From: Tubulanus polymorphus
Lineage: Eukaryota; Nemertea; Palaeonemertea; Tubulaniformes; Tubulanidae
Assembly (NCBI RefSeq): GCF_964204645.1
Contig: NC_134028.1
Location: 20,930,153-20,994,152, forward strand
Length of the DNA: 64,000 nucleotides
Direction: 5' to 3'
The translations under genes and the position numbers were made by a program. Shown here piece by piece: positions 6,384 to 47,560 of this stretch; position 1 is the first letter of the stretch; each line of letters begins with the position of its first letter. The notes beneath the pieces were generated by a model, which did not search any database, was not told where the DNA came from, and saw nothing but the letters and a program-made list of their open reading frames with translations.

Positions 6384-7398
6384 ATGAATGGTAGTATGAA
6401 CTACAGCAGCAGCAATAGCAGCAGCAGCGGTAATGGTGACGGATTGAGATGTCCTGTGATGAAAATCAGTGAAATCCTTACGATGTTAAACATATTTTAT
6501 GTCGGGCCGATTTGTGTCGTCGGCATCGCATTGAATGTCTTAAACATACTTATTTTACGGTCGTTTCGTTCGCCGATCGTATCCGTTTACCTTTTACAGT
6601 TACTAGCGGCAGCCGACATATTTTACCTGGTCAGTTCTTTTTTTCTATTTCACCGTCAGATTTTCGGCTTATTACTTCATGAAAGGTGAAATCGTCTTCC
6701 GTCTCAATGGCGGTAACATCTTTCCGCGGTTCTACATACCGGCGCTTGAAATTTACGGCTTTTCGATTCTATTTCGCAACATCTTCGTGCCAGTCGTTTC
6801 GGTTGACCGGGCGGTGAATTTGTATTTTCCGTTTTTCGCCCGCCGCCACGTCACAAAAAGGCGGGTGACGACCGTATTCGTGATCCTATTGGTTGTCTGT
6901 TTTTTCGGCCGTGGTTACTATATGCTATTCGGAGTCGGGAAATTTGGATACCGACCGAACAAATGCGACCAAACGATGGAAATCTACGCGCTGAAACGAA
7001 GTCCTTTCATCAAGAAAATGCATAATTTGAGATACTACCTTTGCGTGTCGTTCGGACCAATGCTCGTACTTATAACTTTGAACTGCCTGATTACATATAA
7101 AGTCGTATTTCGAACCGGAATCGGGGCGGCTCCGTCGAAAGCACGCTCACCATCTAACGCGCAAGCCACGAAAACCGTATTAACGATCGTGTCGTTGTTT
7201 ATCGTTTGTGAAATGGGCCCTGTTATCGATCGGTTGAGTCAGCTGATTTTGGGCCGCCGATATACATGGCATCCGCATCTCCGGAAAGCGTCGCTCTATT
7301 TGTCCGTGAATGATTCTTTTTTGAATTTTTTTGTCTATGTGGCAGCAAATTCGCGATTCCGCAAGATATTCGTGAATATGCTAAAACGGGCGAAATAA
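6384..7398 (+). pseudogene. Rhodopsin-family GPCR with a frameshift in TM2-TM3 (receptor 1)
   Basis: A single-exon class A receptor read in two frames. From ATG 6384 a Ser/Asn-rich N-tail precedes TM1 (GIALNVLNIL) and TM2 (LLQLLAAAD). The frame then stops at 6689. A second frame picks up the homologous continuation (AYYFMKGEIVFRLNGG, aligning with AYVFVVLGDIVFR of receptor 2) and runs through VDRAVNLYFP (DRY-equivalent), TM5, TM6 and a TM7 NDSFLNFFVYVAANSRFRK to TAA at 7396-7398. The switch falls in or just after a T7 run at 6638-6644. One indel there explains it: either real inactivation or a homopolymer error. TM motifs resemble invertebrate peptide (FMRFamide-type) receptors; the ligand is unknown. 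Confidence 0.75.
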
Positions 7399-9649: not shown

Positions 9650-10993
9650 TGACAATAAATTACGCCCGTATATGGATGTGATAATTAATGACTGTATATA
9701 CGCAGCCGAGCTACTAAATTCACGACGTTAGATGATAAAAAATCATATCATTAATGAGAAATTTTATACATACCCCTAATCGGATACACGGTGAACGTTC
9801 GTTCTATCCTATCGTCATAACTAATCGGATTCGTTTTTGAAAGGTGTCGTGGATAGTACAGTTCTACTGCAGCTTGGTCGCTCACAGGTCGTGGGATGCT
9901 CGTCGAAAACATTACTAACACGGGCCGAACACCGACAACACCGCAACTCAACGTGTGCCAGAGAATTAAAACTCTCCCTGTTCTATGGATTAACAAACTC
10001 AATGTTTCTGTATATTTAGGCTGGTATCTACCGGCATCTATACTGGGTTTGATATTCAACGCATTCACGTTATTAGTTCTAAAACGGTTTAAATCTGATA
10101 ACTATTTTCTCATCAAAATTCTCGCTCTAAACGATCTTTTCTTTATGATCGCTACATTCATTCTTTATCCGCTGAGAACTGCGTACGTTTTCGTCGTTTT
10201 GGGAGATATTGTATTTCGCAAGAACGATTGGAATTTTGGTTGGATCTTCATCTCAGTCGCTTTGCCATTTTTTTATATATTTCAGATGACGCGTAACTGG
10301 TGCACTGTACTGCTCAGTCTAGAGCGGTTGATCGTCGTTTTATTTCCAATTAAATCTCGAAACTTTCCCAAGAAGTTAATTTCACAATGCGCAATGGTGT
10401 TTATTTCACTTTTAAGTTTTTTTGGCCATTTCATTCGTTTCATTCCTAACCAACAACTTGGATTTATGGATTGCCCGGTTGAGTGGCCATATGTGACAAT
10501 ACGTATTAAGTATTATGACTACCCCGAGTGGTTTAAACAATACAGATGGCGATCTGCAATTTCTAGGGTCTATCTCTTCATGTATCTTACTGTTATAATC
10601 CCAATATGTGTTTTAGTCGTTATCAATGTTATTCTTATTTCGGCGATATTTTTGGATCGGCTTAATCGACGTTCAGTGCTCGGTGTAACAGATGAAACGT
10701 CTAGAAGGGAAATAAGGGTTTTAAGAATGGTTTTATCAGTAGTTTTGTTGTTCATCTTCTGTGAAGGTTTTGGATTCATTGATCGTTTAATGAATTTAAA
10801 CCGTATCCCCGCCATTCCGGGTATGAGCCTGATAGCGCTGGGATTTTCAATCATCGATTCGTCCGTAAATTTCATCGTGTATTGCGCGACGGATGAAAGA
10901 TTTAGGAAAGTAGCTTTTGATATTTTAGGCAACGTTTGCCGCGAACGACGGGTACCGATAAAAGAAAAAGGATAAAAAATGCCGAATATGGAG
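9650..10993 (+). repeat. Left arm of a 1.35-kb inverted duplication containing GPCR 2
   Basis: Homology to 13853-15200 in opposite orientation begins about 245 bases upstream of the receptor start (matching TACGCCCG and TTCACGACG blocks) and ends just after the stop codon (AAATGCCGAATATGG). It therefore covers the gene plus its putative promoter. Confidence 0.85.
9896..10975 (+). CDS. Rhodopsin-family GPCR, intact (receptor 2)
   Basis: An uninterrupted single exon of 359 residues from ATG 9896. The N-tail carries N-glycosylation sites (NIT, NVS). Seven hydrophobic segments follow. TM1 has LGLIFNAFTLLVLKRF, TM2 LALNDLFF, TM3 ends SLERLIVVLFP (ER replaces DRY), and TM7 is SIIDSSVNFIVYCATDERFRK, an NPxxY variant. 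This pattern is typical of invertebrate FMRFamide/peptide-receptor-like class A GPCRs; the ligand cannot be read from sequence. The protein is 94% identical (21 differences by my count) to receptor 3 at 13868-14944, its inverted duplicate, and more distantly related to receptors 1 and 4. An upstream in-frame TTG-containing frame is not needed. No TATA box is evident. Confidence 0.9.
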   Translation: MLVENITNTGRTPTTPQLNVCQRIKTLPVLWINKLNVSVYLGWYLPASILGLIFNAFTLLVLKRFKSDNYFLIKILALNDLFFMIATFILYPLRTAYVFVVLGDIVFRKNDWNFGWIFISVALPFFYIFQMTRNWCTVLLSLERLIVVLFPIKSRNFPKKLISQCAMVFISLLSFFGHFIRFIPNQQLGFMDCPVEWPYVTIRIKYYDYPEWFKQYRWRSAISRVYLFMYLTVIIPICVLVVINVILISAIFLDRLNRRSVLGVTDETSRREIRVLRMVLSVVLLFIFCEGFGFIDRLMNLNRIPAIPGMSLIALGFSIIDSSVNFIVYCATDERFRKVAFDILGNVCRERRVPIKEKG

Positions 10994-13852: not shown

Positions 13853-15200
13853 ATATTCGGCATTTTATCATTTTTCTTTTATCGGTACCCGTTGTTCGCG
13901 ACAAACGTTGCCTAAAATATCAAAAGCTACTTTTCTAAATCTTTCATCCGTCGCGCAATACACGATGAAATTTACCGACGAATCGACGATAGAAAATCCC
14001 AGCGCTATCAGGCTCATACCCGATATGGCGGGGATATGGTTTAAATTCATTAAACGATCGATGAATCCAAAACCTTCACAAAAGATGAACAACAAAACTA
14101 CTGATAAAACCATTCTTAAAACCCTTATTTCCCTTCTAGACGTTTCATCTGTTACACCGAGCACTGAACGTCGATTAAGCCGATCCAAAAATATTGCCGA
14201 AATAAGAATAACATTGATAACGACTAAGGCACATATTGGGATTATAACAGTAAGATACATGAAGAGAAAGACCCTAGAAATCTCGGATCGCCATCTGTAT
14301 TGTTTAAACCACTCGGGGTAGTCATAATACTTAATACGTATTGTCACATATGGCCACTCAACCGGGCAATCCATAAATCCAAGTTGTTGGTTAGGAATGA
14401 AACGAATGAAATGGCCAAAAAAACTTAAAAGTGAAATAAACGCCATTGCGCATTGTGAAATTAACTTCTTGGGCAAGTTGCGGGATTTAATAGGGAATAA
14501 TACAACGATTAACCGCTCTAGACTGAGCAGTACAGTACACCAGTTACGCGTCATCTGAAGTATGTAGAAAAATGGCAAAGCGACTGAAATCAAAATCCAA
14601 CCGAAATTCCAATCGTTCTTGCGAAATATAATATCTCCCAAAACGACGAAAACGTACGCAGTTCTCAGCGGATAAAGAATGAATGTAGCGATCATAAAGA
14701 AAAGATCGTTTAGAGCGAGAATTTTGATGAGAAAATAGTTATCAGATTTAAACCGTTTTAGAACTAATAACGTGAATGCGTTGAATATTAAACCCAGTGT
14801 AGACGCCGGTAGATACCAGCCTAAATATACAGCAACATTGAGTTTGTTCATCCATTGAACAGGGAGAGTTTTGATTCTCTGGCACACGTTGAGCTGCGGT
14901 GTAGTCAATGCAGGACCCGCGTTTGTAAAGTTTTCGACGAGCATCCGCCAATCTGTACGCGACCAAGGTCCAATCGAACTGTGGTATCCACGACACCTTC
15001 CAAAAACACATCCAATTAGTTATGACGATAGGATAGAACGTCCACGGAGTAATTGATAGCTAATTAGATTATTCTATCAGTTCATCGGTATGTGTAAAAT
15101 TTCCCATTAATGATATCATTTTTTTTTCATCTACCGTCGTGAATATAGTAGTACGTACATTCATTATCAAATACATATAGAACGGGCGTAGTTTATGATT
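13853..15200 (-). repeat. Right arm of the inverted GPCR duplication
   Basis: The reverse complement matches 9650-10993 over the receptor, about 245 bases upstream and about 15 bases downstream. Similarity outside the coding region is lower but still collinear. Confidence 0.85.
13868..14944 (-). CDS. Rhodopsin-family GPCR, intact (receptor 3)
   Basis: A single exon of 358 residues from ATG 14944. Same architecture as receptor 2: SLERLIVVLFPIK at the end of TM3, FCEGFGFIDRL in TM6, SIVDSSVNFIVYCATDERFRK in TM7. Most of the 21 differences are conservative, but they are denser in the N-tail (NFTNAGPALTTP against NITNTGRTPTTP), the presumed ligand-facing region. The tail ends one residue earlier because a GATAA stop context shifted. 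The intact frame indicates both copies are probably expressed or the duplication is young. The two genes point toward each other across a 2.9-kb spacer. Ligand unknown. Confidence 0.9.
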   Translation of the reverse strand: MLVENFTNAGPALTTPQLNVCQRIKTLPVQWMNKLNVAVYLGWYLPASTLGLIFNAFTLLVLKRFKSDNYFLIKILALNDLFFMIATFILYPLRTAYVFVVLGDIIFRKNDWNFGWILISVALPFFYILQMTRNWCTVLLSLERLIVVLFPIKSRNLPKKLISQCAMAFISLLSFFGHFIRFIPNQQLGFMDCPVEWPYVTIRIKYYDYPEWFKQYRWRSEISRVFLFMYLTVIIPICALVVINVILISAIFLDRLNRRSVLGVTDETSRREIRVLRMVLSVVLLFIFCEGFGFIDRLMNLNHIPAISGMSLIALGFSIVDSSVNFIVYCATDERFRKVAFDILGNVCREQRVPIKEK

Positions 15201-26489: not shown

Positions 26490-27056
26490 GGTTTAGTTCC
26501 ACGATCGGGTATTTTTACAAGCCATAGGCATAAGTAAGAGGTATAAGCCCATCCGATTAAAAGCGGTCCTCAGGCTATTTTTATGACATCATCATCATCG
26601 AATGACACCAGCTATATTTATGACGCCTCATTCTGATTGGCTTATTCACGTTGCGCATGCGCGCTAAGGTGCACAACTTAGAAAATTCAAAGAAAGTGTG
26701 GAGAACAGAGTTAGAGAAAGTAGCGGATGCGCTATCATACAGCTAGACTCGAACCCGGGCCTGTAAATTACTAGCGCAGCGTCATCCCTCTAGACCACCA
26801 AGCTCGCTGAAAACCAACCAAATGTTTTAACTGGTACATATAGCCTCACCTTACCCTAACTCTAACCCTAGGAACCCTAATCCTAACCCTAACCCTCTGG
26901 ACCTCTTCTCACCCTCTTGACACTAATCCTCTCCCCTAAAGACCATAATCCTAAGTTCAATATAAACCATCGTAAAAATAGAATTTACGACCGCTTTACG
27001 TCGAAGCCACTTCAAATAAAAAGCTTACCACCAACGATTAGGTAACTAACTATACC
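26490..27056. repeat. Dispersed repeat family R1, split by a nested insertion
   Basis: The outer parts, 26490-26565 (GTTTAGTTCCACGATCGG, GTATAAGCCCATCCGATTAA) and 27015-27050 (AAGCTTACCACCAACGATTA, GGTAACTAAC), are contiguous in the related copies at 50865-51120 (opposite strand) and 56478-56530. Here they are separated by the 436-bp element at 26573-27008. Confidence 0.65.
26573..27008 (-). mobile_element. Fold-back element with tRNA-like head and CCCTAA runs, copy 1
   Basis: Ends GGCTATTTTTATGACATC / CGTCGAAGCC are diverged inverted repeats compared with copy 2 at 43839-44263. Internally, minus-strand TGGTCTAGAGG (A-box-like) and GGGTTCGAGTC (B box) lie about 40 bases apart at 26747-26802, the layout of a tRNA gene. 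Telomere-like CCCTAA runs follow at 26870-26900. There is no ORF. This is probably a non-autonomous transposon that captured, or was built on, a SINE. Confidence 0.7.
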
Positions 27057-38548: not shown

Positions 38549-39863
38549 ATGGAGGCCATCGCTCAGTTTCTACACAAATCTCTTCCAAAATATTTGGAAA
38601 GGATGCCTTTTCCGGACTCTATTTCTGATATTGCAGAGATGTCAGGTAAGGATAGAATACCTGGTACTTTCTGAATAGAATTGAAGCCAAGCCCGGTCTC
38701 CCGGTCCAGCAGTCAGGAACACTTTCCTGATTCTGCCGTAATTGGCGGAAAACGCCGAAATTGGCAGAATAAGCCGTTTTTGGAAAGTGTTCCTGACTGT
38801 CCAGGAGGAGGAAGAGGGGAAGATGACCCTCGTCGCAATTTCATTCAAATCAATGTCTATTTCAACCTGAGTTGAGTCGAGAGAATTCCTGGTGGCCTAG
38901 CTCAGTCAGTTTTGGTAGTACATACCTGATAGAAGTCTTATTAGGAACATAATGCATTGGCAGCTGACCTGAAATATCTCGTTTTTTATTTTTAATCCAC
39001 TTAAAACTGTATTGAAGGATATCCAAAAAATCTGCATTGAGAGGGGTTCCTGGGAGAAAAGAGACTCCATGGTTAGAAAGTTTAACAATATGCCTCCATG
39101 CCTACCAACTGAGGTACCACCATATTGACCTAATTAATAATCATAATTTAAAAAAATCCTTGATTGATGTTTCAGGACAGGATTGGATGAGGTTGCTTCC
39201 ATTTCTGGGTATTGTGTCATTTTTAACTTATGCGACAGTTCGAGTTTTTATACCAAACCAATCGTCTACCGCAGAAGATCCACGCTCCAAATGGGTGAAC
39301 GAGGATATTCAAAAAGATTGTCCAAAAGTGGCGGATGTGATGAACATAGAGGACCTTGGTAACAAAACAGCTTACTGTCGCTGTTGGAAATCGAAGAAGG
39401 TAGGCGACGCATAGGGGAACTAAGGGACAGAGGGCGTAAAAGTTTGAGACATATAAATAACCACTAATTAGGGTTCAGTCAAACCACCAGATACGTGAGG
39501 GAAGGGGAACCACCTAAGATCATTTTGATAAAATTGAGGGATTTGCATTGCTTTCAGAAAAATACATGTCCATTACATAAAGCTTCCTAATAACACAATT
39601 CAATCTGATAGTCTGATATGTTTAAGTCAAATTGAATGTTAGTTTTTGTTTTTTCAGTTTCCCTACTGCGATGGCTCCCATACTGCGCACAATAAGGCCA
39701 CTGGCGACAATGTCGGACCTGTAGTGTTGAAAAGGTCGGTATTTTTCTACTGCTAGTACGATATCTAACTATGTCCTACTTACACGACTGACCGTTTAAA
39801 TAAACCGTGATTAGATATTGACAATCTTACCTTGAACTTGTATCTTTTTTCAGGGATGGCTAA
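38549..39863 (+). CDS. CISD2: CDGSH iron-sulfur domain protein 2 (NAF-1/Miner1)
   Basis: Exons 38549-38645, 39176-39399, 39658-39734 and 39854-39863 give 135 residues, the exact length of vertebrate CISD2. The N-terminal region ([20 protein letters not shown]) is followed by one membrane anchor ([19 protein letters not shown], residues ~36-55) and the cytosolic CDGSH domain: the CRC pair at about 94-96 and CDGSH, supplying the three Cys and one His that bind the 2Fe-2S cluster. The last codons RDG sit in a 10-base final exon. CISD2 is an ER/outer mitochondrial membrane homodimer acting in Ca2+ and redox homeostasis and autophagy. Intron 1 carries a perfect hairpin element. Poly(A) signal AATAAA at 40174-40179. 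Confidence 0.94.
38710..38799. mobile_element. 90-bp hairpin element in CISD2 intron 1
   Basis: CAGTCAGGAACACTTTCC and its exact complement (38782-38799) form 18-bp arms; inside, ATTCTGCC and GGCAGAAT and a GGCGG/CGCC pair extend the fold. The inner arms are imperfect. Confidence 0.75.
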
Positions 39864-42327: not shown

Positions 42328-44751
42328 CTATCCAGAACATCCACGACACCCGCAATGAATGCACTCGACTATTTTACCCTAAAAAATATTCAAATAAAAT
42401 AAAAAATATTCAAATGTGTTATTTTTACTGAAACAACAAGATTTGTGAATGAAATACAGAAGAACAAACTTCAGAGCCCAGTTGTATCGACAAAGTTACC
42501 CCTAAGGGTAAATCCTTAATCAGGGCAACTACCACCATTTTAACAATGAGAAAACATGGTAAAAACTTGACAAATTTCAAAATGTCCCCAGCAGCAATTA
42601 AGTTGCCTGCAAAACTATAAAATTTTGCTAGGGAGACCAGAAAATCTGTTTGTTATAACCCATCGGTAAAATCGATAGTTCTAAACACAGCGAAACCTTG
42701 TTCAACAACTATGATATGAGGCTGATCCCCTCTGAATGCCGCATATTCTAAGTTCAATCTCTACAATATGAGGCTGATCCCATCTGAATGCCACGTATTC
42801 TAAGTTCAATCTCTATGATATGAGGCTGATCCCCTCTGAATACCACGTATTTTAAGTTCAATCTCTACAATATGAGGCTGATCCCCTCTGAATGCCACGT
42901 ATTCTAAGTTCAATCTCTATGATATGAGGCTGATCCCCTCTGAATACCACGTATTCTAAGTTCAATCTCTACAATATGAGGCTGATCCTCTGAATGCGGT
43001 TCTGCGTATTCTATGATACTTACCTCTTCAAGCTTTGCTTTGGGCACACGACAAATACAGTTCGTTCCAAAGTTAGTATCTCGTGCTTGTATACATCGTA
43101 GACAGCACAGGTTTTCATAGCCTTGTTTTTTCCACTTTGCGATCAGATTCTTATCAGCTATTCCCTCCTTTAAACAGTAGTCATACAACTCTGCAATGAT
43201 AAAAACTTTTTTAGTACATAGTTACACAATAATGAGGTTGGTACTACAACGTACATTTTAGAATATGAGACACCACGCACGAAGGCTGATGATAACTGTA
43301 ATTAATTATTTTACCTCTGCTTATAGCCCTACGTTTGTAGTAAAGGTCATAGATATATCTGGACTTCTGGTGGTGAATTCTGAATATCGGCCATAATCCT
43401 TCTACCTTCCGTTTGCCTTCATGCGGATCTATTTCAGCTGCAAATGAATAAAGAGATTTATGCAAAAACAACTGACACAATTAGGTCTAGAGGTTTATAT
43501 TATTTAAATACTCATTCCTACGCTTTTATTTTATAGACCCCCTAAAGCTGCAGTTTGTGGGTCTACAATAGACAGGGAAAGTAGTAGTCAGAAGTAGTCA
43601 GTGATCTGTCTGTGGTTTAGTTTCACGATCAGGGGCCAGAAGTTGGTAAAAGATAACCAATGAATGAATGAATACCATAGTAAGTAACAATAAAGTCTTA
43701 ATTATTACTATGTCAACCATCCACTGGTTAACTCTAACTTGGCTGCTTAATATAAATATTGGCTAACATAAAACATCCAAGATTTTGGAAATAAAAATCC
43801 TACAAGGTTGAAGATTATTTTTGTCCATTTTAATATTCGCTCGGGCTATTTTTACGACGCCGTAAACGGATGACACTAGCTATATTTACGACGTTTCATT
43901 CTGATTGGCTAATCACGTTGCGCACGCGCACCAAAAATTCAAGGCAAGTGTGGAGAGTTAGAGAAAATAGAGCGGATCGAGCGAGACTCGAACCCGGGCC
44001 AGTAAATTACTAGTGCAGCATCATACCACTAGACCACCGAGCTCGCTGGTAATCGGTCGAATGTTTTAACTAGATATAGCCTCACCTTACCCTAATCCTA
44101 TCCCTAGGGGGTAAAACGGACCCTTACCCTAACCCTAACCCTCTTCTCACCCTCTTGACACTAATCCTCCCCTCTCTAGACCATAATCCTAAATTCAATA
44201 TAAAACCGTCGTAATTATAGAATTCACGACCGCTTTACGACACCGTAAATATAGCCACCTTGTTTAATATTCTTTGACAGTTCATTTTCCATGTGTAAAT
44301 GGCCACCAAGTTTATTGTAGTTTTTCAGTTTAGTTCAGTCCAGTTCAGAAGATGGTGCAGGATAACCCATACGGGTCTTAAGCAAATTTGATATATATCG
44401 TAAAAAAACTCGAGAAAAATAATTTGAGCGTCGAGAGGCAAGCTTTTATGTTAAAAATTAAAAACAGTGATTTGACCCTGTTACTTATTCGATCGGTAGA
44501 TTTCGTTTGATTTTATGATTTGGTGTCCCTTGCAAACCTACCATACCTGCCGGAAGCGAAGCGACATACTTTTAATGTCGACAAAGAAGGAGAATGCAAT
44601 AAATACAAATTAATTGAATTTGTATTGAATTTAAACACTCGAGTTTTTCATTTTTACCTTCTCTCATTTTCTGATCGAGTTCGTCAAGTGTTGGTTCGAT
44701 GAGTTCCCATCCGTCCGGAGGAGGTTTTCTACTCTTTCTCACTTTCGGCAT
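42328..44751 (-). CDS. BUD31: BUD31 (G10) spliceosomal protein
   Basis: Exons 44751-44658, 43437-43315, 43190-43024 and 42378-42328 join to 144 residues, the same as human BUD31. N-terminus [20 protein letters not shown], middle [20 protein letters not shown], then [28 protein letters not shown] and the terminal [11 protein letters not shown]. The nine cysteines in the C-terminal half build the characteristic zinc cluster. BUD31 belongs to the activated spliceosome (Bact complex) and is nuclear. The strong conservation against the surrounding DNA makes this a secure call. Intron 3 contains a 52-bp minisatellite; intron 1 contains the fold-back element copy 2. A minus-strand AATAAA lies at 42045-42040, about 285 bases past the stop codon. 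Confidence 0.97.
42714..42990. repeat. 52-bp minisatellite in BUD31 intron 3
   Basis: ATATGAGGCTGATCCCCTCT recurs at 42714, 42766, 42818, 42870, 42922 and 42974, an exact 52-base period over five units and a partial. The sequence is unrelated to the 52-bp satellite at 27059. Confidence 0.9.
43520..43640. repeat. Partial R1-family repeat with hairpin
   Basis: TAGACCCCCTAAAGCTGCAG..GTGGGTCTA forms an imperfect hairpin at 43534-43566, followed by GTGGTTTAGTTTCACGATC at 43612, the motif shared with 26500 and (inverted) 51105. Confidence 0.5.
43839..44263 (-). mobile_element. Fold-back element with tRNA-like head and CCCTAA runs, copy 2 (best preserved)
   Basis: Flanked by an exact 10-bp direct repeat TTTAATATTC (43829-43838 and 44264-44273), the target-site duplication. 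GGCTATTTTTACGACGCCGT at the left and ACGACACCGTAAATATAGCC at the right are inverted repeats with few mismatches. Internally, minus strand: TGGTCTAGTGG and GGGTTCGAGTC, tRNA A/B-box-like, spaced as in a tRNA; then on the plus strand CTTACCCTAACCCTAACCCT. It lies in intron 1 of BUD31. No ORF; must depend on enzymes supplied elsewhere. Confidence 0.8.
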
Positions 44752-45778: not shown

Positions 45779-46816
45779 TCAATTAACATTTGCCACAAGT
45801 CTGTGCCTCCGATGTAGGCAACTGTTGAATGCAAGAGATCGGAATCTTTTACTCGATAAACAATAAACAACGAAATTGACAGAAGAATCAATTTGAACAA
45901 ACAGGGCCGCTACATAGAAGAAATTAAGATTTGGGATAAAACCTTTGAATTTGAAAGAAATATTAAGCAATTTGTGCATGGCCATTGGCATCTCGAACAA
46001 AGAAAATGCTGTTATAACCGAAATCGCTAGTAATACAGCTTGGTTGTCATTTATTTTTTTAGTACTGATTTTTGAACGCCTTTTGGAAGCTATATATAAT
46101 GAAATTACTAGAATTACATTTGCAAAAGCTATGCCAAAAAATGGTACAAATATACCTAACAAGAGTATCAGGCCTATTATTTTTGAAATTTGGGGAGGGG
46201 CGCGCACGAAGAACAGCAGGTTTCGTCTACTAGGGCAAAGAACATTAATTTGTTTAAGATCTTTAGTGAAATAATGCCAGCCTTGAGTGCCGAAACTCAT
46301 AATAACTATGAACAATAGATAAATGTTACACTTGGTTTTTGTGCAAAGGATTTTAGATTTTAATGGGAAGAACACGACAGTCAATCGCTCTAAACTAATC
46401 AACATCGTTATTAGGTTTCTAATCATTTTGAAAATGTCCATTACAACAGCTACATGACGTCGGAGAGCTGGACCGATTAAATCACTGTTGTCAAAATAAT
46501 AAATGTCGTCACCAAACTTAAGCAATCCGTCAAAATATGCTCCAGACCTTGCGACGGCAACACTCAACAGAAACAGATTATCAGCTATTGTCAGCAGTCG
46601 TAGAATGTAATACGTGGTAACATCTGATTTAAATCGAGAGAGAACGAAATATGTGTAAACATTGAGGACAAATCCCGAGACCCAAATTGCAGGTAAACAA
46701 TAAACAAACACTATAACAATGTTAACGTTTTGCTTGTTAAGAGGACAATCATTTTCAGCTGTGGTAGAATTTTGCGTCAACCAGTTTGAGTCGTTTCTAA
46801 TCGTTTTAGTTGTCAT
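45779..46816 (-). CDS. Rhodopsin-family GPCR, intact (receptor 4)
   Basis: A single exon of 345 residues from ATG 46816. The N-tail has glycosylation sites (NDS, NST). TM1 contains VSGFVLNVYTYFVLSRF, TM2 LRLLTIADNLFLLS, TM3 ends MLISLERLTVVFFPLKSK, TM6 AISVITAFSLFEMP and TM7 QIDSSVNFVVYCLSSKRFR. The SLERL..FFPLKSK and DSSVNFVVY signatures place it in the same family as receptors 2 and 3, about 31 kb away, so these are dispersed members of one expanded family resembling FMRFamide/peptide receptors. A GA-dinucleotide run lies just upstream (46826-46860). Ligand unknown. Confidence 0.9.
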   Translation of the reverse strand: MTTKTIRNDSNWLTQNSTTAENDCPLNKQNVNIVIVFVYCLPAIWVSGFVLNVYTYFVLSRFKSDVTTYYILRLLTIADNLFLLSVAVARSGAYFDGLLKFGDDIYYFDNSDLIGPALRRHVAVVMDIFKMIRNLITMLISLERLTVVFFPLKSKILCTKTKCNIYLLFIVIMSFGTQGWHYFTKDLKQINVLCPSRRNLLFFVRAPPQISKIIGLILLLGIFVPFFGIAFANVILVISLYIASKRRSKISTKKINDNQAVLLAISVITAFSLFEMPMAMHKLLNISFKFKGFIPNLNFFYVAALFVQIDSSVNFVVYCLSSKRFRSLAFNSCLHRRHRLVANVN

Positions 46817-46825
46817 ACTAAGTGA

Positions 46826-46862
46826 GAAAGAGAGAGAGAGAGAGCACGCGAGAGAGAGGGAT
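46826..46862. repeat. GA microsatellite upstream of receptor 4
   Basis: GAGAAAGAGAGAGAGAGAGA followed by GCACGCGAGAGAGAGGG, 10-45 bases upstream of the start codon on the minus strand. Confidence 0.8.
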
Positions 46863-46864
46863 CC

Positions 46865-47560
46865 GCCTCTTAGATTTACTTACAGCATAATGGAAATATT
46901 CGCTGAATAGTTTAACCAATTTTCCGATTTTCAGAAGAATAGCGCTTTCGGGTGCAAATTAGAGTTTCATTTAACGAATCCACCTCTGACCGTCAACTTA
47001 CAGCGGTGGATAGTGAAATATTGAGGCATATTAGAATTGCACGGAATGATATAATATGGTGTTTGACGATTGGGTGAAAAATGTTGTGTTACATTTACTC
47101 TAACGCTCATTTTATTGATGAAACTTGAAACCTTGCACATCTTTAAGATATTATTCTACATATAAATGTAGAACGAGAGCAATTCCACAATAGATTCAGC
47201 CGACTTTAAATTTTGGTTGATTGTTCAAAACTTTCTACTGTATTTGGCGGTGCCACAATTACGGTGTCCATTTTTCGCTACGTGTATGGCTACAGTGATG
47301 ACCTTGTCTGATCGTCATTTAAGTATAATTGTTGTCCAAGAACAAAATGGCATTTATATGTTCATTAAATTCTTCGATCGTCCTAAGTTGTAAGTCAATA
47401 ATTTCAATGTGGTGCTTGACATCGGTTCATAAAATGCTGATTTACTTTACGGTTTTATCGATATGAACAGCGTGTCCTCGATCTCATGTTATTTCTAGCA
47501 TTTCATCACATTCATCATTTCAAAACACACAATTAAATAAAAGCATTGAATTACACAAAC
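46865..47560. other. Intergenic, nothing recognised
   Basis: AT-rich; no exon, repeat or RNA signature that I can support. Confidence 0.4.

Follow-up and report, generated by a model that had tools for sequence, protein, structure and literature searches.

In a 64,000-nucleotide stretch of the Tubulanus polymorphus genome (hereafter the window), a repeat element of 425 bp was located together with the features given below by window position. The initial annotation had placed here a repeat with terminal inverted repeats (TIRs), a target-site duplication (TSD), a tRNA-like block and CCCTAA-type runs, and such an element is indeed present.

43838–44262, plus strand: probable non-autonomous Mutator-like MITE, a copy of family A, 425 bp (family consensus ~450 bp)
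43829–43837, no strand: left target-site duplication TTTAATATT, 9 bp
44263–44271, no strand: right target-site duplication TTTAATATT, 9 bp
43844–43893, plus strand: 5' terminal inverted repeat, holding two GCTATNTTTACGACG units 34 bp apart
44206–44256, minus strand: 3' terminal inverted repeat
43920–44106, minus strand: tRNA-bearing core common to families A–D, with a consensus length of ~205 bp, about 25 bp of which are absent from the window copy
43973–44043, minus strand: degenerate tRNA-like block, which matches Rfam tRNA RF00005 over the whole model at 20.9 bits (gathering score 29)
44026–44036, minus strand: A box TGGTCTAGTGG, read against the Pol III consensus TRGYNNANNNG
43985–43994, minus strand: B box GGTTCGAGTC, read against the Pol III consensus GGTTCGANTCC
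43964–43967, minus strand: TTTT, ~18 nt beyond the B box, a putative Pol III terminator
44085–44145, plus strand: CCCTAA-type telomere-like runs
26569–27003, plus strand: second family A copy, older and damaged, 84% identical to the consensus

Elsewhere in the window, four open frames (6607–7395, 9857–10972, 13871–15019 and 45782–46879) matched PF00001 (rhodopsin-type seven-transmembrane receptors). Two of the four scored slightly below the curated cut-off, and the group may be a receptor cluster. Open frames at 1601–2817 matched C8 and von Willebrand type D domains and are likely exons of one gene.

Family A, its inverted repeats and its target-site duplication

The genome was searched over 268 Mb in 77 contigs. 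Family A yielded at least 46 scored matches among 490 candidates, and a search for its ends with up to three mismatches allowed gave at least 36 matches for the 5' end and at least 32 for the 3' end, both counts being lower bounds, compared with none for reversed control patterns. Twenty or more near full-length copies were found genome-wide, and the full-length copies were 84–97% identical to the ~450-bp consensus. Copies with 0.8–1.8 kb between their ends were rejected as autonomous partners, the extra DNA being mostly other repeats; judging from their sequence, they look like nested insertions.

The two arms of family A begin with GGCTATTTTTACGACGCCGTAGACGG and GGCTATATTTACGGCGTCGTAAAGCGG, respectively. 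About 50 bp of the arms align well, if imperfectly, with weaker similarity extending further, and the outermost ~5 bases of the two ends are unlike each other. The inverted-repeat alignment score of the consensus was 38, compared with a maximum of 24 in 200 shuffles. Similar TIRs were found in three further families, B, C and D, described below. The ends of the genome-wide consensus coincided with the inverted repeats, and the mismatch between the two that had been named beforehand as counting against the element was not seen.

A fold-back element is one in which very long inverted repeats form most of the element. Here, arms of ~50 bp stand in an element of ~450 bp, which is the anatomy of a MITE, and the single-stranded DNA fold was only moderately stable (z = −2.5). 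Of the long imperfect TIRs initially described, the imperfect TIRs were therefore retained and the long fold-back arms were not, and the assignment to the fold-back class was given up.

The length of the TSD was determined from flanks compared across copies, with family A ends set by the consensus. In family A, the flanks agreed in 14–20 of 23 copies at each of positions 1–9, while outside the duplication agreement fell to 4 of 23 copies at position 0 and 10 of 23 at position 10. In family B, tabulated with one row per copy (n = 11), agreement was found in 10–11 copies at positions 1–9 and in a single copy at positions 0 and 10. The TSD thus measures 9 bp in families A (n = 23) and B (n = 11), not the 10 bp given by the initial annotation; the tenth base, C at 43838, already belongs to the element, as its first base, and agrees with the right flank of the window copy by chance. 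The 9-bp duplications were made in targets that are mostly A+T-rich.

The 9-bp length was confirmed by paralogous empty sites. The joined flanks of one family A copy (L013) and one family B copy (L104) aligned without gaps across the junction to paralogous repeats, which lack the insert and contain the 9-bp target once; one of these paralogs lies in the window at 39112–38959. The flanks of two other copies (L028 and L005) were rejected as further empty sites, as their alignments were gapped or of low identity.

As a separate observation, the sequence at 38959–39112 is related to a repeat that is present in both orientations in L004 and L104, and that repeat is an insertion target of family A and B elements.

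The tRNA-like block and the shared core

The initial annotation had described a tRNA-like head with A and B boxes. The block and its boxes were recovered, both boxes fitting the Pol III consensus at tRNA spacing, and the position at one end was not, the block being internal, on the minus strand and degenerate. ARAGORN called no tRNA genes, either in the window or in 20 further copies. The anticodon loop, CTAGTAA, presumably resembles that of tRNA-Thr(AGT) and is taken as a lead only. Judging from the boxes, a short Pol III transcript from the block is possible, and it would be unnecessary for movement.

With CpG left out, the block showed 0.049 substitutions per site, slightly fewer than the 0.058–0.077 observed elsewhere in family A, and only 1 of 375 windows in this comparison was as low in variation. 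As evidence of selection this is weak, since the copies share ancestry and family B was assembled by way of its core. For the CCCTAA-like runs, the initial observation was substantiated: the window copy contains 14 hexamers that are rotations of CCCTAA, compared with a shuffle mean of 2.1, and 14 was reached in none of 1000 shuffles. The runs are part of the element and are clearest in families A and C.

When the middle of the element alone was used for searching, a core of ~205 bp was found to be common to at least four TIR families, A to D; these letters are labels of the present analysis, and the families may already bear names. Family B is ~399 bp long with ends CGCTGTGGCTACTCGTACGG and CGAAGTGGCTACTCGTACGG, family C is ~478 bp long (two sequenced copies), and family D is 363 bp long, with TTTATTGAA on both sides of its one sequenced copy (L097). 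In every family, the core extends ~60 bp upstream of the tRNA-like block, with nearly the same edges.

Between families, the cores were 88–97% identical, compared with 48–70% for the 55-bp ends (shuffle mean 44–46%, gaps counted). Most end pairs lay above the 99th percentile of shuffles, and on these alignments the ends of families A–D are related, yet far more diverged than the cores. For families B and D, the corresponding values were 97% for the core and 66–70% for the ends. Fast evolution of the ends is not an obvious cause, since within family A the 5' end varied no faster than the core (0.058 compared with 0.066–0.077 substitutions per site).

In total, 100 core 60-mers were collected with up to three mismatches allowed. 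For 62 of them, a recognised end lay nearby or the copy was read inside a TIR family. A sample of seven drawn from the remaining 38 was read over 72 bases per copy. End sequence of the B type was recognised in four and of the C type in one; the last two contained nothing known. Of the core copies checked, the majority are inside TIR elements, and neither a SINE-type tail nor a second duplication was seen around them. Nothing in the data points to a SINE life cycle.

The proposed chimera of two classes stands as a union of a TIR DNA transposon with tRNA-derived sequence, although not as a one-off event, given that the core occurs in at least four TIR families. Because the ends of the carrier families differ far more than the module, the sequences suggest that the tRNA-like module is a passenger that changed vehicles.

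Two further arrangements were observed during the core and end searches. Three core copies with identical matched sequence (G000 C4:8950696, 8958316 and 8965936) are spaced exactly 7620 bp apart, which suggests a tandem array of a 7.6-kb unit with one element each. At G000 C2:29321041-29321117, two inward-facing B-type ends stand only 77 bp apart and may form a minimal element that has hardly any interior.

Candidate MULE transposases

MULE TSDs are commonly 9 bp long. Lengths of 8–11 bp have been reported (PMC6446971). Both the 9-bp TSD (families A and B, with empty sites) and TIRs (families A–D) were found in the present elements.

The genome contained 56 PF10551 (MULE) domains, and the generic end gave 134 matches compared with 6 in the control. 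In four elements, a PF10551 domain lay within 4 kb of an inward-facing CRAAGTGGCTAYNYKTACG-type end, where 0.07 were expected (P about 1e-6). No match to SWIM or FLYWCH was found beside these four linked domains, and open frames at orphan ends contained nothing transposase-like by eye. Between one pair of ends (C1) lie 7.9 kb, including two PF10551 matches, and the pair has an 8-of-9 duplication.

The end of another MULE (C5) was 90% identical to the 3' end of family D over 60 bp. Local scores of the family A ends against the same MULE end were 23 and 25, the shuffle maximum being 13, and by this comparison the family A ends appear clearly related to MULE ends. The MULE matched by D-type ends differs from those matched by B-type ends. 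With regard to the autonomous partner with the same ends, whose search had been proposed initially, the match to MULE ends is strong for family D and for B-type ends and amounts to relatedness for family A; an autonomous element with exactly the ends of family A was not found in the genome search.

Origin of the composite and related systems

Most probably (roughly 80%), the element belongs to the Mutator-like (MULE) superfamily as a non-autonomous MITE, with a tRNA-derived module inside it as a passenger. Related MULE transposases would act on the MITEs in trans, recognising their TIRs and making the 9-bp duplications. The core may stem from a single capture of tRNA or tRNA-SINE sequence by an ancestral MITE, and would later have come to lie in MITEs with different ends, the probable route being interrupted gap repair, or else template switching, following excision. 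Interrupted gap repair is preferred because ends and core vary alike within families and very differently between them.

A serious rival to such exchange, though on balance an unlikely one, is ordinary descent of families A–D from a core-bearing ancestral MITE, with the ends changing faster, for example by following diverging transposases. It agrees with the persisting relationship of most end pairs (57–70%, shuffles 44–46%), with a GGCTA-type terminal motif common to the ends and with the slightly lower variability of the tRNA block. It accounts poorly for families B and D, whose cores differ by ~3% and whose ends differ by 30–34% despite similar end and core rates within families, and for the match of D-type and B-type ends to different MULEs.

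It is distinctly improbable that several independent insertions brought a tRNA-derived SINE, mobilised by LINE machinery, into different MITE families. The tRNA spacing of the boxes, the presence of the core in TIR families with strongly diverged ends and the two of seven sampled unassigned cores that lacked a known TIR at the expected place would fit this course. However, a transcript starting at the tRNA would omit the ~60 bp upstream of the block that all families have in common; the core edges are nearly the same in all families, the core copies checked show neither tail nor second duplication, and most of them are inside TIR elements.

Equally doubtful is the reading of the tRNA-derived module as a modular parasite of DNA transposons, which would have entered MITEs with various Mutator-type ends on repeated occasions and raised the success of its carriers, for example if Pol III factors bound to it kept copies open or protected. 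A true fold-back element of the Rehavkus or FB type, with inverted repeats of tandem units as its active structure, is very improbable, given the short arms, long centre and only moderately stable fold, even though tandem units of ~34–35 bp occur at the family A 5' end as well as at the C1 MULE end and Rehavkus likewise combines 9-bp TSDs with minisatellite sequence (PMC6446971).

The preferred reading, a Mutator-like MITE with a tRNA-derived passenger, was compared with known systems. MULEs and their non-autonomous derivatives share with the present families the TIRs, the 9-bp TSDs and the MULE transposase domains beside related ends. MULEs are known to acquire host sequence; the present cargo differs in being a tRNA-derived module common to TIR families with strongly diverged ends. 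The tRNA-derived SINEs have a tRNA-like block with A and B boxes as well, but their units begin with the Pol III promoter, lack TIRs, and have TSDs of variable length and a 3' tail, whereas the present element has TIRs, fixed 9-bp TSDs, an internal block preceded by ~60 bp of core, and no tail. The Rehavkus transposase has a PHD finger. Rehavkus has been reported from arthropods and annelids; its TSD measures 9 bp, and repeated units lie within or close to its ends (PMC6446971). The present element resembles it in both respects and differs in its short arms.

SINE-in-MITE composites are already known, and literature searches on IS4EU TSDs, Nematostella MITEs and insertion into MITEs returned nothing. 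The nearest precedent is MER6: MER6/MER6A is a Tc1/Mariner MITE with a V-SINE body (PMC6887750), and thus also a TIR DNA element with SINE-derived sequence that was spread by DNA transposition. MER6 lacks the tRNA-related head of the SINE, whereas the present element carries a tRNA-like block; furthermore, the present vehicle is of the Mutator type and its TSDs measure 9 bp, and a single core is common to at least four TIR families.

Repeat annotation may label such families as SINEs owing to their tRNA boxes. The occurrence of a single tRNA-derived core in several Mutator-type MITE families with strongly diverged ends offers a natural test of how MITEs acquire and exchange their interiors.
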